Positions 4,500-63,599 of a stretch of DNA of 64,000 nt are shown here, piece by piece. A model generated the notes under the pieces. That model did no database searches, was not told where the DNA came from, and saw only the letters and a list, made by a program, of their open reading frames with translations. A program made the translations under genes and the position numbers. Positions within the stretch are counted from its first letter, which is position 1; the number at the start of each line of letters is the position of its first letter. Source of the stretch: Pisaster brevispinus (lineage: Eukaryota; Echinodermata; Asteroidea; Forcipulatida; Asteriidae); contig JAMKCF010000018.1 of the NCBI GenBank assembly GCA_023634235.1, positions 719,195 to 783,194 on the forward strand. Reading direction: 5' to 3'.

Positions 4500-5550
4500 A
4501 CTTTCTAACCGAAATGCAATAAACTGGCATTCCAAAATAAAAAGCCGGCAGTGGTTTATTGTCATAGATCAGATCTCACATTCCCCCTTCCTCCCCCACA
4601 ACAATTTGTTTTCAAAAGACTGATAAATGCCATCTTCATCTAAATGTGACTCTCGTTGACGCTTGTTACAATTTCCATACTAAAATGCAATTAATCTTTT
4701 GCGTGTGTGCGCGTCTTCTGCAAACATATAAAACTCCATTGGTTAGCTTGACCCATGGGCAAAAAATGAAGACAAGAACGCCTGAAATAACCACTGTAGT
4801 TGCTTTGTCTTCAAATCGGATTTAAAGCCACGCAGCTGTCCCGGGAAAAAAATGAGCACGGACAAAGCGATCTAAACAACCGTCGAAATCAAATAGAGAA
4901 AGGTTTGGTCTCTTTGCTCTGCTTATCTCAGAGGAAAAATATACTTCACAGCACTGTTAGAATATTTCCACTAAAACCGTTATTGGATCACAGTTGTAAT
5001 TCTGGACCTGAGGTAGTTCAGTGTCGTCTTATTCCATTTGTTCCGGCCTTGGGATTTTCCCCAACTCGATTTCAGACTATAGGGTTGCTTGGGTGTAGAA
5101 GGGGAAAGAAAGAAAAATAAAAGGGGTTTAGATCATTCACAATATGACACGACATACTTCCTTTACCAAATACGTTTGTAAAAGTCACAATTGGTAATTT
5201 ATTGTTACAGACAAATATTGTTATTTTGAATCTGCTCACTGATGTTAAAGCTCATGCCAGGGCCGACCCTCCAGCTAAATACACCCCTCTGAATCACTCT
5301 CACACTTGGGAAAATAGCATTACGGGAATCCCAAGATAGCCATTGCTTAATTCGATTGCCACAAGCACATTATGAAAATTCACAAAACCGCTGACAAAAC
5401 ATAACCTCCGTTATCGCTGTTTTCATAAAAAAAGGATGGAAGAACCTATATTTCTTCCCCAATTTGGTCGTGTTCCCTGTGTAGGTAACGCACTACTATT
5501 AACTAATGAAAACCAATTCCCGTTGTACTAAAACAGGAGCCAGACTAATT
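4500..5550. other. Intergenic, no gene seen
   Basis: Unique AT-rich sequence. The open frame at 4800-5120 starts at a non-ATG codon and has no protein features. Confidence 0.45.
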
Positions 5551-5552
5551 GC

Positions 5553-5900
5553 CACTTAAGCCACGGCTTTGCTTAGGTTGAGCCTTTTCGAAACCACGGG
5601 TTCGGCAGCGGCTTAGGCTTCGGCACTGGCTTAGGCTTTGGCACTGGCTTAGGCTTCGGCACTGGCTTAGGCTTCGGCACTGGCTTAGGCTTCGGCACTG
5701 GCTTAGGCTTCGGCACTGGCTTAGGCTTCGGCACTGGCTTAGGCTTCGGCACTGGCTTAGGCTTCGGCACTGGCTTAGGCGTCGGTAGCGGCTTAGGCTC
5801 AGTTCGCACATCTGAAGCCCCGTATGGAAAGTGCACATTGTTATAATCACAGACGGAGCCAAAAGCTTACTCCGAAGCCGTGGCTTCGAAAAGGGACATT
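5553..5900. mobile_element. Inverted-repeat element with an internal 18-bp minisatellite
   Basis: The ends match inversely: CTTTTCGAAACCACGG (5584-5599) against CCGTGGCTTCGAAAAGG (5878-5894). Between them about 10 copies of GGCTTAGGCTTCGGCACT (5613-5795) form an array; translated on the minus strand this gives KPKPVP repeats, a shadow. A related element lies at 52620-52800 with a shorter (ACTTGG)n core and the same GAAGCCCCGTA(T/A)GGAAAG flank. Confidence 0.75.
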
Positions 5901-5904
5901 GATT

Positions 5905-6555
5905 TGAAAAGCTGTTCAAACGCATCGCAAGCTTTAAGCCTACGCCTTCACTTTAAAATGTAGACATTAGTTTTTGTTCTCCCGGAGGTGTTGCGAATTT
6001 TTTTTTCATGCATGTGCAAGAATTGCAAATGTGTTAAGAGGGCAGGACACACAGGTGTCGAAACTTGGAGAGGGAAACATTACTCCCATAGGGCACTTGC
6101 AATCCCGCGAGAAACCGCGTGATATCTCGAGAGGCTACTCGAGGGAAATGCCCATATTTTGGAGGTTTGTGTTCTAGTTCGATTGAGAGCGTTCAACGAT
6201 TTGATTTTTTTTTCTTACGGGGAAGAGGTAGAATTGTATAGACCGACCATTTTGTCCACTCAGGTGTAGGGTTGTCTCGCGGGTGTCCCGAGCGTGGCTT
6301 CTGACTGTAATTCACGCGCGGTTGTGCACGTCGCTTAGACACCAATAGGCCTATTCAAGTCTAATTTAAACCGAACAAAATGTAGTCATAATTTTAAAGA
6401 CAACTGATCAGTCCGCCAATCCTTTGCCATTCAATGGATGAGTCAAATCCACTTTTACGATATTTGTCTTAAAAACTAAATTGGGAATGAGTGGGTATAG
6501 TGTTTTGGTTTAGTTACATTTAGTAGTTGTTTTCATAACAATGGAAGACTTTAGA
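5905..6555. other. Intergenic, no gene seen
   Basis: Unique sequence without repeats or coding signals that I can identify. Confidence 0.45.
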
Positions 6556-7453: not shown

Positions 7454-8366
7454 AAACTTATAAAGCGCACAAATCCATCAAAGTGCTCATGGCGCTAAAT
7501 ACAAACAATAACGTACATAAATATGTACAATAACCAAAATTAAAACGTAAGCCTAAGCTAAGAAGAAATCCAGAACATGTGCTATAGAAATACAATACAA
7601 TTACAAATGCCATATCTAAGAAACATCGAGGGGTAAAAAAACAAATCCAACCATTTACTCAAATACCTGATTGAAAAGATGTGTTTTAAGTTTTTTTTTT
7701 AATTGGGTTAAAGAAACAGATGATTTTACTAGTGCAGGCAATTTGTTCCATAGGCGTGGGGCAGCATGTGAGAAAGATCGGTCTCCCCATGAATGATTGG
7801 ATATGGGCTCAATAAGGAGGCTAGAATTGTAAGACCGGAGTTTGCGAGGAGGATTGTATGGGTGGAGAAGATCATCAATATATGCAGGGGCATTGTTAGT
7901 GAGTGATTTATACACAAAAAGCAGAAGTTTATACTTAATCCTACTGCTTACCGGTAACCAGTGTAATTCTTTTAAAATCGGCGTAATATGGCAGGACTTT
8001 TTAGTTAAGGTAATTATACGAGCAGCATAGTTCTGAATACGCTGAAGACGCTCAATTTGAGTACAAGGTAGACCATATAGAAGTGAATTACACATGTCAA
8101 GTCTGGAAACTACGACAGAGTGGACTATCTGCTCAGTTGCATTTTGTGTTAAAAATTTCCTTACTTTGCCTATATTACGAATGTGAAATGTGGTAGAACG
8201 TGCAATACTAGAAATATGTGAACTAAGTGTCATGGAAGAGTCGAATATCACACCAAGATTACGAACTTTGGTATGAGCGGTAACTCATGCAAAATTAACA
8301 TCTTTTAAATACAAAATATTAGCTGGGAGAGGACCAAAACACACACACTCCACTTACAACGGCCTC
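7422..8366 (-). mobile_element. 5'-truncated L2/CR1-clade LINE: reverse transcriptase C-terminal part, 3' UTR and (ATT)n tail
   Basis: On the minus strand the frame 8251-7655 encodes the end of a non-LTR reverse transcriptase. It includes LGVIFDSSMTLSSHI, YCxSL-like CNSLLYGLP, RLQRIQNYAARII, ILKELHWLPVSSRIKYKLL, and the terminal LWNKLPALV...LKTHLFNQVFE-stop that closes L2/CR1 proteins. Upstream, homology continues to about 8366 but an in-frame TGA (between FA and VTAH) breaks it. Downstream the 3' end reads GTGCGCTTTATAAG followed by an (ATT)n run (7422-7450 on the plus strand), the typical L2-like tail. The endonuclease and the fingers/palm region are missing, so the copy is dead on arrival. 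Confidence 0.9.
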
Positions 8367-8478
8367 ATGACCAGTGTTTTGTTTTCCAAATTGCAGAAGT
8401 AGAAAAATGCTGTTTAAAGAAAGTGCGTCTGCAAAGAATTAGTCACATTGAGCGTGAGCAAAAATCGCAAAGTCAAGT

Positions 8479-8495
8479 GGGGGGGGGGGGGGGAG
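8479..8495. repeat. Poly-G run
   Basis: An uninterrupted G run of about 15. Similar G or C runs of 9-17 occur near 9527, 10629, 18471, 23658, 24747, 34618, 34857, 45661, 50386, 55818, 55865 and 56041. Confidence 0.8.
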
Positions 8496-8499
8496 GAAC

Positions 8500-9225
8500 G
8501 CAACTCGAAAAAATGCTAGCAGTTTACTGTAAGGCCGCCATTCCATTTTGTTTCTGAATGGCAGCCAAATCGCAACAGTCTCCAATCAGTTGACCGCGGG
8601 GTCTTTTCCGGGGTCCCAGTAAAAACATTATTTCAAGGCAATTTTCAAGATTCGTACCAAAGATTTCTGGCAAGAAGCGCGCAGCTATAAATCCAATTTA
8701 TTTTCACCGAGCGAAGCCAAGGTTGCAAAAAGATGTCTGATAAACCACACAAACAGCATCTTCCTTTACTTCGACATTCATTAATAACGAGAGGCATCTT
8801 GTCCTGCCTACGTGAGAAGATGAGGAAACGTAAGGAAATAAACTAAGTGCCCCGGAACGGTCAGGGCCGTTCAGAGGTTCTACACACCGACCCTATGCAG
8901 CGCGCACGGGGGAAGAACGTACGCGGTGCTTGCGGCGCGCTGGACGGATCATATTATCCATGGCCACCGCTGCAACGTGAAACGTCCTTACTCTATATAA
9001 TAATGAGGAATAAAAATGCATAGAAATATTCAAATAGACTGTCCTTTTCCCGTAGGTCGTACATTTTATCGAATAATGCCGAGGTTCATTTGATTTGGTA
9101 TGGTTTGGAAATGTTAGAGGTCCCTCAACTGTCTTGGTGTCTTCTACATTACATTCAACGTGCAAGTATACCCATAAATTAACGATTACTTATTCCGAAA
9201 TGTACGGAGATCCAGGGTGCCACCA
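8500..9225. other. Intergenic, no gene seen
   Basis: No repeat with a second copy in the window and no coding signal was recognised. Confidence 0.4.
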
Positions 9226-11190: not shown

Positions 11191-11402
11191 GACTATGTCG
11201 CACGAGACAACTTTTCCAGGCAGCTTGGAGGCAACCAACTGCAGTGCATGCTACAGGAACACTTTGGTAGCACATGGGTAATTTTTCAAATTATGTCTTA
11301 CGCTCCCCAAGAATAACATGTGAACATTCAAATGTAAATGGATTTTCTTCTTTGAGATTGCCTGGAACTGGTTGCCTGTAAATTGCCTCGTGTGGCATGG
11401 GC
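11191..11402. mobile_element. MITE nested in the AGATAG MITE (first insertion)
   Basis: It is present here and absent from the two intact host copies. The ends pair inversely: CTATGTCGCACGAGACAA against TTGCCTCGTGTGGCATGG, followed by GGAGGCAACCAACT against the GGTTGCCTG region. Confidence 0.7.
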
Positions 11403-11590
11403 CTTACGGGTAAATTGCATTTTGGCTTGCAGGCGCGTCAAGCGCTCAAATTATTAACGCAGCCGCGCAGTTTACTAACCAATCCTGCAATGAGTTTTGT
11501 GAAATGTGCGCGTGCTGAACGCCGTTCTCACGCGAAACGCATGACTGTGTGTTCCAAATTGCCCGTAAAGATGGCCGATTTACGTCATAT

Positions 11591-11732
11591 AGACCATGCA
11601 AGTCTCGCGCGTATTCGAACGTTTTTGGGACCACTGTGGTCCCACGTACATTGCTTTAACGCGTGAAAGAAACAAACTCACGCGCTTTAACAGATCCCAA
11701 ATATTCGAATACGCGCGAGACTTGCACAGTCT
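11591..11732. mobile_element. Hairpin MITE nested in the AGATAG MITE (second insertion)
   Basis: The arms are AGACCATGCAAGTCTCGCGC(GTATTCGAA) and the inverse ending GCGCGAGACTTGCACAGTCT. It is flanked by AT on both sides where the intact host has a single AT, so this looks like a 2-bp target duplication. Further copies are at 34044-34186 and 44286-44432. Confidence 0.85.
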
Positions 11733-33662: not shown

Positions 33663-33989
33663 TGCAGTAATACCATAACATTAGTTTATAAAATCAAGCA
33701 CCTATAAATCCGAATAAATTTTGGGTAGAACAAAAAAATTTCCCTCTCAAGAACTCCATTCAAAAATAAGAATAGAGATCACTTTTGAAGCTCGACAGTC
33801 CCGTAACTATTGTTGCGTATGACGTCACAAGTTTGTACATTGCCCTGAGCTCGTGTCCGAATCGGCAGCTTCGGCTGTAGGCAATGCTTCGGCGCATAAT
33901 GACGCAATTTTTCATCCGCAGTCACACAGTCTCGACAGTCTCGACCACTAATGCGGACACAAGAAGACAATGGTTAAAAGTTGCATTGT

Positions 33990-34036
33990 ATTGGGCGCGT
34001 ATTGGGCGCGTATCGGGCACGTATCGGGCGCATATT
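33990..34036. repeat. 11-bp tandem repeat, four copies
   Basis: GGGCGCGTATT, GGGCGCGTATC, GGGCACGTATC, GGGCGCATATT in succession, directly beside the hairpin MITE whose arms carry a similar GCGCGTATTCG word. Confidence 0.85.
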
Positions 34037-34043
34037 GGACCTA

Positions 34044-34186
34044 TAGACCGTGCAAGTCTCGCGCGTATTCGAACATTTTTGGGACCACTGTGGTCCCACG
34101 TACATTGCTTTAACGCGTTAAAGAAACAAACTCACGCGCTTTAACGGATCCCAATGTTCGAATACGCGCGAGACTTGCACAGTCTA
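34044..34186. mobile_element. Hairpin MITE, 143 bp (second copy)
   Basis: AGACCGTGCAAGTCTCGCGC ... GCGCGAGACTTGCACAGTCT, flanked by AT on both sides. Nearly identical to 11591-11732. Confidence 0.9.
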
Positions 34187-40219: not shown

Positions 40220-42215
40220 TGTACAGAGTGAAGACTGACAATTATGTCAGTCGGTATCATACCGAGAAGTATTTCGAAGAAGTGTACCCACTCTTCAGCT
40301 GCTGTGATTTTTGAACTTCTAAACTTCTTCCATGTATCGTGTTACATAGGAAACTGCCCTCTCTGAAAACGCAATTTAGCAGATTTGTGTTCTTTTCGCG
40401 GTAACTTGAGATTGCAGCTTGTCAATGATTTTAAAGAAATGTCAAACATCCGTCAAAGATTGGTTGGTTGGACGCATCTGCATAATTGGTTTCGTGGACA
40501 ATTTTAAGTTATTTCACACGGACATTGTGACAGTTTTAGCAGTAATATCAAATTTGTAACTTTTTTTATTATTTTGCGACACTGACGTTTTTGCTTGCCT
40601 TGCCTCAAACAAAAGGGATAGCAAAATTCCAAGCAGGAAGTTTACATTGTAAACTATTGTATTCAAGGAATAATACATATTCTTAATGACCAGAAAAAAG
40701 TAGTTAAGTTTTTAATAAAGAGCTTATGTTTATTACAATTGCTTGTAATTATTACTGTTCGATTTGCCACGAGAGATAATTATTGTCTGGGACAAACATA
40801 ATTCTTTGAAAATCAGTTCTTAGACGAACATGCACCGAGACTCGGGGGGGACATCTCAGTTAAAAACACTTTCATTATATTATAGTGCATTGCCGACAGA
40901 GAAATACTTTTATTTAAAATACTGTCATCCGTTTGAAAAATATTCCTTCAAAATTGTGGTCTTATATTATACGAAAGTGGACTATGTTGTAAAAATCTCT
41001 GAATATTTCCATCTAGTTTAAGGAACATTTCCATAGGTTTGGTGACTGATATGTTTGTTGGAAGCTAGCGGGTACGAAGGAACGTGAACACCTTCAAAAA
41101 ACTAATGACGTGTCAAACGCAGAAACAAAACATGTCTGTGACAATTTCCTCGAAAAAAGATGCGAGCATTTGTTTTCTTTTGAGAAAACATAATTGTAAC
41201 GCTGACATGTTTTGTTTTTTAAAACAGCATGGGTGTTGTTCAGAGAGGATGCCTTACGGGCTACTTCAGTCAGTCATCGAAATACTCAAAGTGGTCTAGG
41301 CATCATTGGTTATTGGACGAGTAAAATTCATTCTAGCCTTTAGATCTCAAGAAACATATTTTAAAGGGATGGTTCACCAATAGGCTTTTGAAGAGTACAT
41401 TCATTTCAATCCTCTAGTTAAAAAAAACACACTGTACAATTAATCTGTTCAAGCTTCGTTATGTTCAGTTGGCACGTTGAAGTGAAAACAATATTTGTTT
41501 CAATGTATTTTTTTCCCCTTAACAGGCAATGCTGTTTCAATACAAAAAACAAGCCAAAACCTTTGCATATACCACAGACAATGCACAAAATACATGTAAC
41601 ATGTACAATTGTTTGTATGGACGGGAGACAATGTCAAAATCCGAACAATTTTTTAATTTTCTAATCTTCTTTTCTTTTCTTTTTTCTTTTCTTTTTTGCT
41701 TTAAGTTTTTTGTTTTTTTCATTGAACTTCGTGCGTACATACTTGTATTTTCGTATTTTATGCTTCTTCTATTGTGCTTTGGGTGTACATATCGTAAATT
41801 GTATTTATTGTTTGTATATTTTAAGATTTTGATAAACTGCTGCATTGGCAGATAAAGCCTATAAAAGAAAGCTTATAACCTTCTCAAACCTACAAAAAGT
41901 AGCATTCTAAATTGTTATATCATAAAGTAAAATCTTTGAGAGAATTCGGTCCTAAATCGAACGCTTTTCCAATTTTTTTAGTGGTGTCCACAAAAGGCAT
42001 TAAGATGGAATTTGATACCATTATTAGTATAATTATTTTGCTCCCATTATCCATTCAACCAAACAATTTCAAAATGTATACAATGGTCAAAAGTACAAAT
42101 TCCACGTACTAAAATAAAACAATAAAAAATAGACAGACACATACAAAGAAAAAGGAGGGGTACAAAATATTGAACACAGGCCTAAATAAATGCATACATG
42201 AATAAACAATTAAAC
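40220..42215. other. AT-rich intergenic DNA with a few repeats, no gene seen
   Basis: An inverted pair AAACAAAACATGTC (41123-41136) / GACATGTTTTGTTT (41204-41217), diverged units of the 27.8 kb tandem repeat (41308-41425), and a TTTTC-rich tract (41668-41700). The overlapping frames at 41529-41855 are low-complexity. Confidence 0.45.
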
Positions 42216-42232
42216 AATGTCTTTAAAAAAAG

Positions 42233-42625
42233 AGGATACCCAATTTGGTGAGATGCTATACTCAAAAGAGGATACCCTATTTGGTGAGATGCTATACTCA
42301 AAAGAGGATACCCAATTTGGTGAGATGCTATACTCAAAAGAGGATACCCAATTTGGTGAGATGCTATACTCAAAAGAGGATACCCAATTTGGTGAGATGC
42401 TATACTCAAAAGAGGATACCCAATTTGGTGAGATGCTATACTCAAAAGAGGATACCCAATTTGGTGAGATGCTATACTCAAAAGAGGATACCCAATTTGG
42501 TGAGATGCTATACTCAAAAGAGGATACTCAATTTGGTGAGATGCTATACTCAAAAGAGGATACTCAATTTGGTGAGATGCTATACTCAAAAGAGGATACT
42601 CAATTTGGTGAGATGCTATACTCCA
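42233..42625. repeat. Minisatellite, 36-bp unit, 11 copies, very homogeneous
   Basis: The unit is GATACCCAATTTGGTGAG + ATGCTATACTCAAAAGAG. Differences are a few C/T changes in the last three units (ATACTCAATTT) and one in the second (CCCTATTT). Because 36 is divisible by 3 and the unit lacks stops in several frames, two plus-strand frames and one minus-strand frame all stay open. This is not evidence of coding. Confidence 0.95.
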
Positions 42626-42631
42626 AAGACT

Positions 42632-42858
42632 CCTTGGTCAGAATTGACCCCGGATTCCGGGTCCCAGGAGAGCCTGACCAGTTCCGGGTCAAGCTGACCA
42701 GGAAAGTGGTTAAAAATGCGATTTTAACTCAGAGTCTGCGTCAGTCTGAGCCATTTACGTGTCCCTTTTGAGACAGATTCTGGGTCATTCTGAGACAAAA
42801 ATGGGTCAGGCCCAACGGAACCAAGAATCCGGGTCAAGTCTGACCCTGGAGTTATTAG
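42632..42858. mobile_element. GGGTCA/TGACCC-rich element core
   Basis: It joins directly to the 36-bp array. Alternating GGGTCA and TGACC words, including GGTCAAGCTGACC (42687-42699), and the block AATGGGTCAGGCCCAA shared with 25100-25120. Confidence 0.75.
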
Positions 42859-57671: not shown

Positions 57672-57898
57672 TAGATAGTTCCCAATACACGCCATCTTTA
57701 CGGGCAAATTGCATTTTTGGCTTGCAGGCGCGTCAAGCGCTCAAATGATTAACGCAGCCGCGCTGTTTACTTACCAATCGTGCATTGAGTTTTGAGAAAT
57801 GTGCGCGTGCTGCACGCCGTTCTCACGCGAAACACATGACTGTGTGTTCCAAATTGCCCCTAAAGATGACCGATTTACGTCATAATGCAACCTATCTA
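57672..57898 (+). mobile_element. Intact AGATAG MITE, 227 bp
   Basis: TAGATAGTTCCCAATACACG ... AATGCAACCTATCTA, with AT outside AGATAG and CTATCT. About 90% identical by eye to 29383-29608. Confidence 0.9.
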
Positions 57899-57954
57899 TT
57901 GTGTTGACATTTTTAAAATTAAGAACGACTCGTTCAAAACAATGGCGTGGCAGA

Positions 57955-58140
57955 GCGCATCCAGTTCTCCGGACTCGAGTTCTGGTGTGGCCGGCAACGG
58001 AGAGTGGGTTCGAGTCCCGGTCGTGGCACGGATACTTTACCCTAATTGATCTGTCCTTCAGATGGAACATTAGGTCTCGTGTACTAGGACTGGCAGTGCA
58101 CGTAAAAGAGCCCAAAACACTTATCGTGGAAGAGTAAGGG
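57955..58140 (+). mobile_element. tRNA-derived SINE (family B), plus orientation
   Basis: A/B-box part GTGTGGCCGGCAACGGAGAG and GTGGGTTCGAGTCCCGG, then the body CCTTCAGATGGAACATTAGG, TCTCGTGTACTAGGACTGGC, AGTGCACGTAAAAGAGCCC. Confidence 0.8.
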
Positions 58141-58222
58141 GTTAACCCTGGTGTAGAGGTTAACCTGGGTGTAGAGGTTAATCTGGGTGTAGAGGTTAAC
58201 CTGTGTATAGAGGTTAACCCTA
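58138..58222. repeat. 18-bp tandem repeat at the SINE tail, 4.5 copies
   Basis: GGTTAACCCTGGTGTAGA and three variants in succession, starting at the 3' end of the SINE body. Confidence 0.9.
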
Positions 58223-58224
58223 AA

Positions 58225-58970
58225 GCATAACTTTTAAGATAGGGTTTTTTCTGAAGGAATATTTTTCCAGAACGTCTGTAACATTTAACAGAACTGAGTA
58301 ATCTTTTTAAAATTAGAAATCGTCAACCCATCTTTTTGTAATCACCGAGGACTAATGCCACGTATTGAAGATGTCATTCCGAGCCGAATTACTACAGCAT
58401 GCTTGTAATTTTTATCAAAAGATTATAGTCATTTTTAATTTGATCCGGTTGGTCTTATCTAAACAAGATTCCGATTTTTTTTCCGGGAGCCGCTGTTTGT
58501 ACATTTCCGGAACTGCCACTTGCCACTGATGCACTCACGCAGACAATGTTAAACAACTACTGACTAGCATGTCTGTTTTCCGACACGGTTGTCAGTGACC
58601 CAATTACTGCCTCTTGCTTTACGCAGACGACAAAATAGCTACTGAACACTTCTTCTTTTTTCATCACTGCAACGTTCCGGCAACTTGATTGGCCAACAGC
58701 TGCGTGAACGAAGTGTGCCCATGCGCACTGAGTCGTGTTAAGTCGCGCTTCCGTGGCATAGCAAGTTCCCGTAAAAGCATAAATTGGCGTTCGCTGTGAT
58801 CAGTCCGACATCATGTCATATCACTCACGTTGGAATTATCATTTGAACATTTATATCGAGTGACAAGCCGTGTGCAGAAAAACACGTCCATACTCTCACT
58901 ACATTGTTTACATCAAGTACGGGCTTTGGTATCAACTCTTCCTGTTCGAAAGCTCATCTTCATCTACTCT
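58225..58970. other. Upstream flank of the prohormone gene
   Basis: Unique DNA. A possible non-coding first exon would lie here; no donor stands out. GATTGGCC and CAGCTG occur near 58687-58700. Confidence 0.4.
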
Positions 58971-59022
58971 TATATATATATCTTGTTTTGAGTTCACCTT
59001 CCTCGTCACTTTCCTTCTCAGT
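58971..59022 (+). promoter_or_regulatory. TATA run plus initiator, or alternatively a 3' splice acceptor, just upstream of the prohormone ATG
   Basis: TATATATATA (58971-58980) is followed about 30 bp later by TCACTTT (59006-59012), which fits an initiator with +1 at A59008 and would give a 15-base leader. The same stretch also reads as an excellent acceptor: a pyrimidine tract ending CCTTCTCAG at 59021, one base before the ATG. In that case a non-coding first exon lies upstream. Upstream elements include an inverted CCAAT (GATTGG, about 58687) and an E-box CAGCTG nearby. RNA evidence would be needed to choose between the two readings. Confidence 0.4.
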
Positions 59023-59359
59023 ATGCCAACTGGAGGAGCTATTCAACGACACATCGCGGGAACGCGGCCGGGATTCGCACCGTGCCCCTGGCGGGGAACA
59101 TGGATCCAGCTAACTCTACAGACCACTGTTCTTGTCTTACTACTCACCACGAGGTACGGGTCCGCCAGGCCGCCCCTTATGGACTACGTTACCGCCGATG
59201 AAGTGTCCCACATCACGACCCGGTCCGAAGGGATGGACCTTCGGAGTTTGTGCGATCGTACACAGTCCGTTGAAACGAGGGTTCTTTGCAGACTAACTCA
59301 GAGAAGTGGTGGTTGGTTGGACGGAGAAGGACGACAGAAACCGATTTCTAAAAGATCAG
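59023..59359 (+). CDS. Candidate secreted prohormone, coding exon 1 (signal peptide, pro-region, Lys-Arg site)
   Basis: The exon encodes residues 1-112 and the first base of codon 113. The ATG at 59023 is the only in-frame ATG after the upstream stop (TGA, 58861). Residues 1-28 are a long polar N-region. A hydrophobic core (LTLQTTVLVLLLTT, about residues 30-43) follows, with likely signal cleavage around Gly46-Ser47-Ala48. The pro-region has two cysteines (C77, C89; a C-x11-C spacing) and ends PISKR-S, so a prohormone convertase site (K110-R111) lies two codons before the exon end. The donor CAG|GTAAGT is a perfect consensus. The exon joins 63421 in phase 1 to give a 171-residue precursor. 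The join, the amidation signal and the signal peptide are seen in the sequence; the secreted-hormone role is inferred. Alternative: an unrelated small secreted protein. I do not recognise it as a named echinoderm neuropeptide. Confidence 0.62.
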
Positions 59360-62300
59360 GTAAGTTTAAAATCTCACATTTATCTCGGCGGATGCAAGTT
59401 TGTGTCACCTGAAGATAACGTGCTTGAACTAACGGTACACCACTAAAAAGGTGGAGCAAATTTTCAAACAAATTTTTTATTCAATTGAAAAAATCTTGCC
59501 AATGGTATCCAACACTTGGGCACGCAATATCCGCAGAACCGCAGAAACAGTCTTTATAGTATTTTTTTTGTTTACATTATTTTAGAGTTAGGTTTTGTAC
59601 GACACAATCAGTCTTTTTTTCTCTCTCTCTCCCCCCTCCCCCTCCACGTTTCAGCATCTTTGTTTATTTGAAAGAGAAAGGTTATAATTTCTAAACCGAT
59701 TTATATGCGAAATGTTTCGGTCGGGAGACTACGAATAGTACGAGAAAACAGTTACACAACGCCTGGTTTCGTAGCTTCAATTTGCCAAGAAAAGAAAACA
59801 ACACCACATGCACACAATCCTTGTAAAAACATTTTCTTTAACTGTATAAGCGATTTTGAGATATGTGGACACAATACTAAGACACTGTTGGGTAAATTAG
59901 TCTGTGTACACCCAAACCAAACAGTGCACTCCCGTAATGTCCACCATTTTTAATATCTCAAGATGGCTAATTTGGTACAGTCCCCTTCTCGAAAAGGTGC
60001 CGCTGATTTATGGTTTGGTTGTATTTTGTGAGTTTTGGAAACTAAGAGAAAATATTCATTCTTCAAAACGATAACTTTACGAAAACAAAGCGATTTACTA
60101 AGCACTTAATGTTGATTTCCTCTTAATTGTAGATGAAGAAATAACAGGTTCACGTGGAAATATTACGTATTAAAAGAATTAGACATTTCAAATTCTTCCA
60201 CCTGTTGATAATGAGACAGAACCAGGCAGCCCACCAGTACAACCACTCATTAAGCAATACAAAAACCATTTCAGATAACATTATTGTATATGTGGGGTTT
60301 TTTTAATTCCCAAATCCCTTTCAAAAAAAAGAAAGTCAAACTGCGCATTGTTTCAGACAGAACCTCTAAGATTGAAACCGTTACCGAGTTCAACAATTTT
60401 CAAATTACAATTTCCCCCTCGCATTTCTTTATGAACACTTACACAATCGGGTAACCGGTACTTCGTTAAACCCATGCTCCATGGTTAAACCATAAGTCGC
60501 GTTCCCCCAACATTTCCCCTGCACGGACTTCCCTGTATTATTTTGACAATTTGTAAGTCCCACAAATCACTTTCAATTAGAATAGAAGTGAAAGCCAAGG
60601 AAAGTTTCAACAACTCAGGTAAATACTTCCCAAGAATGTTAATCTCTGTGGACTTTCGCGTGTGCCGGATTGAATGTCTATAGCCACAGGGGAAGGTCGC
60701 TATGAAGATAGACTAGTTTTTCAATATCCCCCGGTAAATTCCAACGTAACAATAGCTATTAAGTTTGTTGGTTGGGCGCGTGGCGGTCCATGGTATGTCG
60801 AGTGCAATGTTTGTTGGTGTATTTTTCACACCATTTCGAGGTCGGAATGTTAAATAGTCGCAGGACATAATCGCAGGGAATGTGCAGCGTTGTTCGCCAG
60901 TAGAAAGGAAATAGATAGGCTCATGGGGGTGCCGTGATTGACAACTGGCATGAGTGTGGGGTCAAAATAGACGTCCACTGTATTTCTCCAGGCAGGCCCT
61001 TCCTAACTGAGTACAGGTAGATGATAAAATAATGCGCAGTTTCGGGACAGATACAGAATTTTGACGGAAAAGCTTTGGACATTTAGGTATTTTCTCAGAG
61101 CGGTATTTTAATTTACTAAAAAATATGCTCAGGCATAGCTCATTAAAAGAACATTGATTCTTCCGCAAACACCTAATATCAGGAATTGTATATTATTAGT
61201 ATTATTTTGTAAACTTATGGTTTGAAGTGCAAGTCCTTGCTCTATGGTCTTAGCATAGTCTTAACACCATGCCTGTTTGAATTTCCTACTGAGTTAAAAA
61301 AAATAATAATAATAATAAAGGTACCCGGTCCATCTTACATTGATAAATGCAACTTCCACTCAAAACAAAACACGTCAACTTTGATATTGGGAATATTATC
61401 TTGAAAACAAACGAACATATTTTACAAGTTGTCCCCCAGTTACCACAGCAAGGATCGACGGGGCCGTTTAATGCCTTTACCTTGCTCAGCTTGAAGCGTA
61501 ACCATGTCAATAATTTCAATTTAATTAAAATGCCACTTGAATTGATCCGCCGGCATTAAGTGCAACAGCTATGCGCCTTCGTTTCGGCGTAACTTCCTAT
61601 CAAAACAATTAAGGGCGTGGATCTTCCATGCACACTGCCATTTTTTTCTCCTGTTCGAAAATGAACAGAAAATTCATGCCAGTATTGGGACCACGTCGGC
61701 CAAGAGAATTTAGTTAATTGACACATTTTCATAATTGGGAAATGCTATTTTCTAACCGTGTTTTTTCCCTTCTCTTTTGGGATTCTGTAGGCCTTCGCTA
61801 CTGTCTCGCAGTAACTGAAAGACATGCGAATAGTTTTATATTCGATTAAATTCAGAAACATTCTTTTATTCCATATTGATCAACGGCAATCAACATTGCA
61901 AATACTGAAGAAAACATACAACAAAATAACGTATACAATGTTAAAATGAGAAAATACAATAGGGAAAGGAAAGCAAGTCTACGGACAGACGACAAAACAA
62001 ACAGAAACAGGCTTAATGACCAAACTAAATGGATCTGACACAACTAAAGATGAAAGCAAAGAGAGACGATAAACAAGAGGAAGACCGAGTGAGAATTCAT
62101 AAGACAGAAACATAAATTAACGAGCATGGGAGAAATTAAAAATAATCGTTCAAAGGAACTTAAACACAAAAATCTAAAATTGTGTTTTACGTAGTTTTCT
62201 ATCAAAATACAATAGCTTATAATTGTTTCCCTTGGTGTGGAACTAATGATATCTTTAATCATTTTGAGAAATACCGTTTACTAAAAAAAAAAATGGTTTA

Positions 62301-63420
62301 ATATGCCTAATTCCTGTAATGTTCTTTATATATATTTTTCTTTGGCATTTCTTGAGACTCTACCATCAAAAGTGAGGATCAGTGTATTTCTTTTTAATTA
62401 TTTTTAAACAATAAAAAATGTTATCTTACCAACGGGGAGGTCAAGGTAAAGCGGCACGTTTGTTCGCATTCTTAGCAAATCGCTGAGAAATTAGTCCCCC
62501 AATGGACTTGGTCGTTAAAACGTCTACACGTTTGGAGTCTGCAGTTTAAAAAAGAGGGTTTTTTAGACGCTCTGATTTTGTTATTTCACGTTGATCCTTC
62601 AACAATCTCTGTGTCGTGTTCCTTTTGTTCATGGGTAGTAAAGGAATACAATACCAAAAACATACCAGACTATTTCCCCTTCCAGCCTCGGTTTCGTTTA
62701 TATGATTTAGATGGGGGAAACATGGCTACCGTCGTTAATGTGTATTACCTGCATCTGCTCCCAGTGCAATTCCCAATTTGACCATGTCCTCGATAGTGCT
62801 ATCGAAATAGGGTCACAAACCACTTTTACCCCACGCCGCGCTCATTTTTTGTAGCGTATTTCAAGCACACCGACGACGTCGCTAATAAAATTACCCTACT
62901 TTGTACATTACGCTTAGCATTCATTTCACCCATAATGGACATAAAATTGCTGAACGGAATTATAATTTGTAGGTTGGCCATTAACGTTGGAAGCTGGAAC
63001 TAAATGGGCTCTGTTTAGAGCGACAATTGCATGATTACAAACAAACACTTCAACTAGTCCTCGATGTTTCTGTTGTTGCCAACATTGCCAAAGAAGAGAG
63101 TCAGTCCGTCAAATGCCGTGTGCATGAAAACCTTCTTCTTACATAAAACAGCAGAGTGCTTCCTGGATACCATGTTTCTTTGGTTTCTGTTAAACTTGTC
63201 TAGCAACTCTGAGCTGCAGTGAACCATTTGATTAGCCAATCAAAGTTCTTCTTTTAAAAGCCTTCGGTCTGATTCTAATTTTCATTATGTTCATTGGCCT
63301 CGTTAATGTCTTTTGGGCTATTGTTCATGGGCTATTGTTCACATTTGCTCCTTGTGTATAATTTTCTTAATGCACTTTATTAAATTCCCGCCATTTTGTT
63401 TTTGTTATTCTCCTTTCCAG
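59360..63420 (+). other. 4,061-bp phase-1 intron of the prohormone gene
   Basis: It is bounded by GTAAGT and CTTTCCAG. It is AT-rich and mostly unique. Visible content: a pyrimidine-rich tract with short CT runs (about 59612-59645), a short (AAT)n run at 61300-61318, and a fragment near 62667-62700 related in inverse orientation to the CCAAACCGAGGCTGG repeat also seen near 3, 54 and 55 kb. The small open frames inside have no matching splice sites or recognisable protein features, so no internal exon is called. Confidence 0.55.
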
Positions 63421-63599
63421 ACGCTTCTTCGTTTTCTGCCTTTCAGAGGTTAGTTAGCCGGCTAGGGGCTGCGGCGAAGCAGAGGGAAGACGCCATGCGA
63501 GAACTCCAACAACTAAGAGCCATGGGCGTTATCGATGAAAACAACCAAGTTATCAGGGTACCCGAAGAGACCCAAAACCTTATGCGGCTTCTAGGCTAA
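63421..63599 (+). CDS. Candidate amidated peptide hormone, last coding exon
   Basis: This exon encodes almost all of the mature peptide. The acceptor is a strong pyrimidine tract (TTTTTGTTATTCTCCTTTCCAG) and the reading frame continues exon 1 exactly (the split codon gives Asp113). After the Lys-Arg site the peptide starts SDASSFSAFQRLVSRLG and runs 59 residues to NLMRLL, followed by Gly and a stop. That Gly is the usual amide donor for peptidylglycine alpha-amidating monooxygenase. There is no cysteine. Residues 6-36 of the peptide are rich in Leu, Ala, Arg, Glu and Gln with i/i+3/i+4 hydrophobic spacing, so a long amphipathic helix is likely. The S-D-x-x-x-F start resembles secretin/VIP-type ligands, the start and the intron position resemble PTH/TIP39, and the C-terminal L-M-x-[IL]-[IL]-amide resembles CRH-type ligands. 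The family assignment is inference; 59 residues is longer than most of these hormones. Confidence 0.62.

Follow-up and report, generated by a model that had tools for sequence, protein, structure and literature searches.

A candidate single-copy gene for an amidated, cysteine-free peptide hormone in the sea star Pisaster brevispinus, with a possible class B1 receptor partner

We describe a candidate peptide prohormone gene of the sea star Pisaster brevispinus (assembly GCA_023634235.1; 549.7 Mb in 512 contigs). The gene lies in a 64 kb stretch of contig C18 (G000:C18:719195-783194), hereafter the window, and is predicted to consist of two coding exons and one intron, with the following features in window coordinates:

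59020..59021, plus strand: probable 3' splice site AG (CTTTCCTTCTCAG followed by T), one base 5' of the ATG, with 14 pyrimidines out of 16.
59023..59359, plus strand: coding exon 1, 337 nucleotides from the ATG to a consensus donor (TCAG/GTAAGT); it encodes Met, a predicted signal peptide, a pro-region that contains two Cys, then Lys-Arg 110-111 and Ser 112, and it ends with the first base of Asp 113.
Within exon 1, plus strand: predicted signal peptide, with a hydrophobic core at residues 28-43 and a possible cleavage after Ala 48, placed by eye and by hydropathy only.
59350..59355, plus strand: Lys-Arg codons AAA AGA, the sole dibasic pair among the 171 residues of the precursor.
59360..63420, plus strand: phase-1 intron of 4,061 bases, GT...AG.
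63421..63599, plus strand: coding exon 2, 179 nucleotides after a strong acceptor (CTCCTTTCCAG followed by A); it completes Asp 113 and runs through Gly 171 to the TAA stop.

A sequence-only reading of this stretch had proposed two exons with these coordinates, consensus splice sites and matching phase, and it stood up to re-translation: spliced at near-consensus sites in phase 1, the exons give a precursor of 171 residues. The order that it had proposed (signal core, pro-region, Lys-Arg, cysteine-free peptide, Gly and stop) is also borne out. The first 50 residues contain a segment whose 8-residue mean hydropathy reaches at least 2.5, and the dibasic site stands before the predicted peptide, with none within it when the whole precursor is checked. 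The 60 residues that follow Lys-Arg are SDASSFSAFQRLVSRLGAAAKQREDAMRELQQLRAMGVIDENNQVIRVPEETQNLMRLLG; Ser is still encoded by exon 1, and the intron interrupts the codon for Asp. Since the precursor ends in MRLLG and a stop, with Gly in the amide-donor position, the loss of this Gly would leave a 59-residue amide ending in Leu-Leu-amide, the length given in the earlier reading. The predicted mature peptide has no Cys, an average mass of about 6,689 Da and a net charge near 0. From this anatomy, the assignment as the precursor of an amidated secreted peptide is well supported.

On the 5' side, an untranslated exon upstream of the ATG is likely, because a strong acceptor sits one base before it; sites that pass the same acceptor criteria occur at 0.53 per kb on the plus strand of the window. 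On the 3' side, an AATAAA follows the stop at a distance of 450 bases, just past the end of the window. A search for repeats of at least 25 bases between positions 58400 and 64000 gave four weak pairs, and none falls inside the exons.

The base composition sets the two exons apart. The guanine plus cytosine (GC) content is 55.5% in exon 1 and 51.4% in exon 2, against 37.5% in the intron, and only 0.2% and 3.6% of windows of the same size reach the values of exon 1 and exon 2, respectively. We rejected frame length as an argument for a gene: frames of at least 182 codons are not unusual in simulated sequence (10 in 30 simulated windows), which places it within chance. A joint test was more telling. 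It asked for four features together: an open frame that starts with ATG and reaches 80 codons or more, a consensus donor, a hydrophobic core and, close to that donor, a dibasic site. It was partly post hoc, as its initial hydropathy threshold missed the candidate and was reset before the final run. No such combination arose in 1,200 simulated sequences of 64 kb (third-order Markov, both strands), versus once in the window, and it was absent from 293,409 bases of other DNA of the same genome, taken in pieces of at most 10 kb. When the core and the dibasic site were left out of the test, the 1,200 simulations yielded 13 first exons and 5 exon pairs, none of the five ending in Gly. Inside the window, a single frame-compatible pair of exons passed the scan.

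A codon-usage model trained on 22 long receptor frames from the same genome lends the gene modest support. The score per codon is 0.039 for exon 1 and 0.070 for exon 2; chunks of the training frames average near 0.1 and open non-coding stretches -0.09, and 7% and 4% of the latter score as high as exon 1 and exon 2, respectively. Exon 2 clearly favours its own frame (0.070, with -0.063 and -0.074 in the others). The genome was also searched with the DNA of exon 2, which matched only itself, with no second copy, and with the precursor at expectation values (E) up to 10, which retrieved its own two exons only (both candidates scored). A search of plasmids with exon 2 gave zero matches, as expected. 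Altogether, we consider it very probable that this is a real, single-copy prohormone gene.

The precursor was compared with protein families and structures. In Pfam, with E up to 10, Parathyroid, Hormone_2 and CRF were all absent from the matches of the precursor, the only one being SHOCT (0.017), below its cut-off. Exon 2 alone gave SHOCT (0.0031), HTH_Crp_2 (0.03), MEKHLA (0.13) and TssR (0.25), all of them again sub-threshold. NCBIfam returned zero matches, a weak test given that its models represent bacterial and archaeal proteins, and the best match in a sequence search of PDB had an E of 0.029, short of significance. The sequence-only reading could not place the peptide with any named echinoderm neuropeptide; its novelty holds within the protein-family libraries and the literature searched. 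We also used AlphaFold (single-sequence mode, five models) to model the 58 residues whose codons lie entirely in exon 2. The model shows a helix at residues 3-33, a weak hairpin and a second helix at 48-57; the mean predicted local distance difference test score is 90 for the best model and 78 for the worst, and the predicted template modelling score is 0.54. With this model, Foldseek retrieved nothing at E of 0.001 or lower, the best E being 2.9, and no helix-turn-helix (HTH) fold. The amphipathicity of helix 5-36 is not unusual when compared to shuffled sequences (p 0.36).

The C-terminal half of exon 2 (63423-63596) recalls the recognition helix and wing of a Crp-type HTH, probably by chance. 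A reading of exon 2 as such a wing-helix was rejected, the HTH_Crp_2 match at 0.03 being sub-threshold and Foldseek empty at E 0.001.

We then compared the peptide with ligands of class B1 receptors, using the sequences of 19 ligands. In uncorrected local alignments, calcitonin gave p 0.027, members of the PTH/TIP39 family p 0.29-0.45 and CRH p 0.97, worse than most shuffles. A second test, which fixed the alignment at the mature N-terminus, was post hoc and came later than the local alignment. With this N-anchored test, the summed score over ten PTH/glucagon/secretin ligands has p 0.0045. TIP39 has the highest score (18, p 0.036), and VIP, PACAP, secretin and GHRH each reach p < 0.05; glucagon (0.08), GIP (0.17) and GLP-1 (0.39) do not. 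By comparison, the summed p was 0.21 over six CRH/ELH ligands and 0.24 over ten unrelated hormones.

Furthermore, receptors of this class are encoded in the same genome. A genome search with Pfam 7tm_2 gave at least 154 matches (150 of 288 candidates scored). A motif scan of 66 loci picked out L044, L053 and L059 as exons of class B1 hormone receptors, and a fourth, L054, was added by reading, which makes at least four in total. All four class B1 receptor loci are on contig C2:

C2:18.69 Mb: L054, which within the cut-off matches only 5vai_R ('Uncharacterized protein').
C2:18.71 Mb: L044, best match calcitonin receptor.
C2:28.87 Mb: L059, best match CRF receptor 1.
C2:31291000-31299400, minus strand: L053 and L067, exons of a PTH/secretin/PACAP-cluster receptor with a long C-terminal tail.

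We take 5vai_R to be a GLP-1 receptor and leave the type of L054 unassigned. Joined by eye, the exons of L053 and L067 give a fragment of 205 residues that scores 187 bits with PTH1R, 184.5 with the secretin receptor, 174.6 with PAC1, 170.3 with VIP receptor 1, 167.5 with PTH2R, 162.6 with the glucagon receptor, 159.1 with the GLP-1 receptor and 148.1 with the calcitonin receptor. Judged by these scores, the genome carries a predicted receptor of the PTH/secretin/PACAP cluster, closest to PTH1R by a small margin. This receptor is on contig C2 and the candidate ligand on C18.

By eye, most translated 7tm_2 matches are of the adhesion type. Groups of them, long single open frames on C9, C20, C26, C37 and other contigs and shorter exons on C22 and C27, look like local expansions.

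Taken together, the single-copy gene probably encodes a secreted peptide prohormone. After removal of the signal peptide, a prohormone convertase would cut after Lys-Arg 111 and Gly 171 would serve for amidation, giving one 59-residue cysteine-free amide with an N-terminal helix of about 30 residues. We infer transcription, cleavage, amidation and secretion from the sequence. Most likely, the amide would be a neuropeptide or hormone that signals via a class B1 receptor, for which the PTH/secretin/PACAP-cluster receptor on contig C2 is the leading candidate; that the peptide pairs with this very receptor is a reasonable hypothesis, though one that we consider less likely than not. The claim of the sequence-only reading that this is a class-B1-receptor-like hormone keeps part of its ground: the N-terminal resemblance, the predicted helix and the cluster receptor in the genome speak for it, and the local alignment, which is not significant, does not. 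Because every family search stayed below its cut-off, "class B1 hormone" is a plausible functional reading rather than a statement of family membership. With a gene of the right anatomy and a cluster receptor in one genome, the question of their pairing is open to a direct ligand-receptor assay. Even if the guess at the receptor is wrong, a 59-residue amide outside the searched families would add a new peptide hormone to those of its group.

A number of observations weigh against a class B1 hormone or, more generally, against the gene as drawn. The n-region of the signal peptide is long (27 residues), and an acceptor-like site lies at 63446/63447, 26 bases into exon 2; read from the sequence, splicing there would shift the frame and lead to a stop after three codons. 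The codon scores of exon 1 do not single out its own frame (0.039, with 0.020 and 0.056 in the others). Among the ligands, no local alignment is significant after correction for the 19 compared, the best being DH31 with p 0.01. In the N-anchored test, p is 0.058 for the best single ligand (maximum) and as high as 0.55 and 0.82 for PTH and PTHrP. Pfam, NCBIfam and PDB gave zero matches above cut-off. As regards the receptor, PTH1R leads the secretin receptor by only 2.5 bits over the joined fragment, and the L053 exon of transmembrane segment 3 alone scores higher with the GLP-1 receptor (45.8 bits) and the calcitonin receptor (45.1) than with PTH1R (43.8). Finally, in the excerpts drawn on here, PTH and PTHR genes were reported as found in chordates only (PMC5640766), and a Western blot of starfish neural extract, cited in PMC3483286, was described as free of PTH immunoreactivity.

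Among other explanations, a secreted amide of another family, or of none known, acting through a rhodopsin-type receptor or one that is not a G-protein-coupled receptor, is the strongest competitor and a real possibility, while falling short of an even chance. The class B1 look would then be that of any alpha-helical peptide, in keeping with local alignments that are not significant, a helix no more amphipathic than its shuffles and a Foldseek search empty at E 0.001 or better. Against it stand the N-anchored resemblance to PTH, glucagon and secretin ligands, the cluster receptor that the genome encodes and the frequent use of class B1 receptors by helical hormones that are long and free of cysteine. 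A diverged peptide of the CRH/DH44/ELH type, extended at its C-terminus, would also be helical, amidated and present in one copy per precursor, and the genome has a CRH-receptor-like exon (L059). We consider this very unlikely, since most shuffles align with CRH better than the peptide does (p 0.97), the N-anchored p for CRH/ELH is 0.21 and the published starfish CRH precursor has 130 residues and a peptide of 41 (PMC4772807, in the part drawn on).

The exons could also be coding and belong to a small membrane-anchored or intracellular protein, or exon 2 could have another splice partner. The tail of exon 2, with its Crp-type HTH and SHOCT patterns (0.03 and 0.0031, both sub-threshold), fits such a protein, and the acceptor 5' of the ATG, together with the open frame upstream, leaves room for an upstream coding exon, in which case the hydrophobic stretch would be an anchor. 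These Pfam matches are below the curated cut-offs, the best Foldseek E of 2.9 came without an HTH, and only one frame-compatible exon pair passed the window scan; we regard this explanation as unlikely. Slightly less probable still is that there is no gene, and that open frames and splice-like sites coincide by chance. A 182-codon frame within chance and exon 1 codon scores blind to the frame speak for this; the joint features, absent from all 1,200 simulations and from 293 kb of real DNA, and the GC peaks that coincide with both exons argue against it. The secreted peptide prohormone is the reading that we retain.

The published context in echinoderms, again from excerpts of the sources, is compatible with a gap that such a ligand might fill. 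PTH receptors are present in Ambulacraria, and their precursor was not found in ophiuroids (PMC5627052); a PACAP homologue was reported as absent from the transcriptomes of 40 echinoderms (PMC7251081). The unassigned precursors of a crinoid survey, in the portion covered, include no cysteine-free amide of about 60 residues (PMC9793003), and in 12 of 38 places of PMC4772807 no starfish orphan precursor has the size and kind of the candidate. The portions used of PMC11521371, PMC10508912, PMC3890597 and PMC12638048 hold nothing decisive. Among the papers that the literature searches returned, none mentions an echinoderm ligand of the PTH type in its title or in the first lines of its abstract; most subscription papers, preprints, figures and supplements lay outside these searches.

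Elsewhere in the window, we noted several repeats. A peptide stretch WNTQSCVSRENGVQHAHISQN recurs at 11449-11655 (minus) and 57774-58322 (minus), and in locus L002 at 8428-8634 (plus), and another, LARIRTFLGPLWSHVHCFNA, at 11382-11663 (plus) and 33881-34141 (plus); both appear to be dispersed repeats, and one dispersed-repeat copy lies about 0.7 kb upstream of the gene. A 209-codon open frame at 7658-8284 (minus) resembles, by eye, the final part of the reverse transcriptase of an element without long terminal repeats (non-LTR). Tandem repeats open in several frames, with SKEDTQFGEMLY and KPVPKP-type units, occupy 42185-42768 and 5548-5952. A REST/RE1 site was rejected as a feature of the window, which holds no match with up to three mismatches.

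How does the candidate compare with known class B1 ligands? The calcitonin family differs in build, with two N-terminal Cys and a C-terminal Pro-amide, whereas the candidate has no Cys and ends in Leu-Leu-amide. With the vertebrate PTH and TIP39 precursors it shares a signal peptide, a pro-region, a dibasic site and a single C-terminal, helical, cysteine-free peptide, and probably also a plan of three exons, of which the last two encode the precursor, the first exon being inferred here. It differs by a much longer pro-region, by the predicted amide and by the lack of resemblance to PTH or PTHrP. Vertebrate PTH is not amidated, which is a further point against a close relationship. The PTH and TIP39 genes have an untranslated, a prepro and a peptide exon, and in the elephant shark gene the intron comes before Lys-Arg (PMC4354418, excerpt), unlike that of the candidate, which comes just after it and again counts against the parallel.

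The CRH- and PDF-type peptides of echinoderms are class B1 ligands too. As far as the excerpted text of PMC4772807 goes, they also have dibasic sites, with an amidation Gly in CRH and in the first PDF peptide, and both peptides and precursors are shorter than the candidate. In a comparison with members of the CRH, ELH and PDF families other than the published echinoderm sequences, the candidate showed no significant similarity.

The parallel in protostomes is insect PTH (iPTH), to which the lophotrochozoan QSGamides or QSamides are related (PMC8557429; PMC8398477, both in excerpt). According to the parts of PMC7224569 used here, insect PTH peptides share less than 12% identity with human PTH peptides; Ser-Asp is conserved near the N-terminus, an amidation Gly followed by basic residues is strictly conserved and a Pro at -4 mildly so. 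With iPTH, PXXXamide and QSGamide, the candidate shares a Lys-Arg ahead of the peptide, a single amidated peptide, in the genome a PTH-type receptor and perhaps the Ser-Asp in the N-terminal part (PMC7224569). It differs from iPTH and PXXXamide in that its Gly is followed by the stop, without the strict basic residues, which tells against kinship, in the lack of Pro at -4 and in the position of the peptide at the extreme C-terminus. Compared by description, Ser-Asp stands in alignment columns 7-8 of iPTH (PMC7224569), versus residues 1-2 of the candidate (KR/SDASSF).

Finally, the N-terminus invites comparison with glucagon, secretin and PACAP: the candidate lacks their initial His and has one extra residue, and its Ser-Asp...Phe spacing is close to that of the HSDxxF ligands. 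As a conjecture that we consider less likely than not, the peptide may be the ligand still lacking for the PTH/glucagon/PACAP-cluster receptor of Ambulacraria, an amidated helical hormone whose N-terminal Ser-Asp would link protostome iPTH, chordate PTH/TIP39 and the secretin family.

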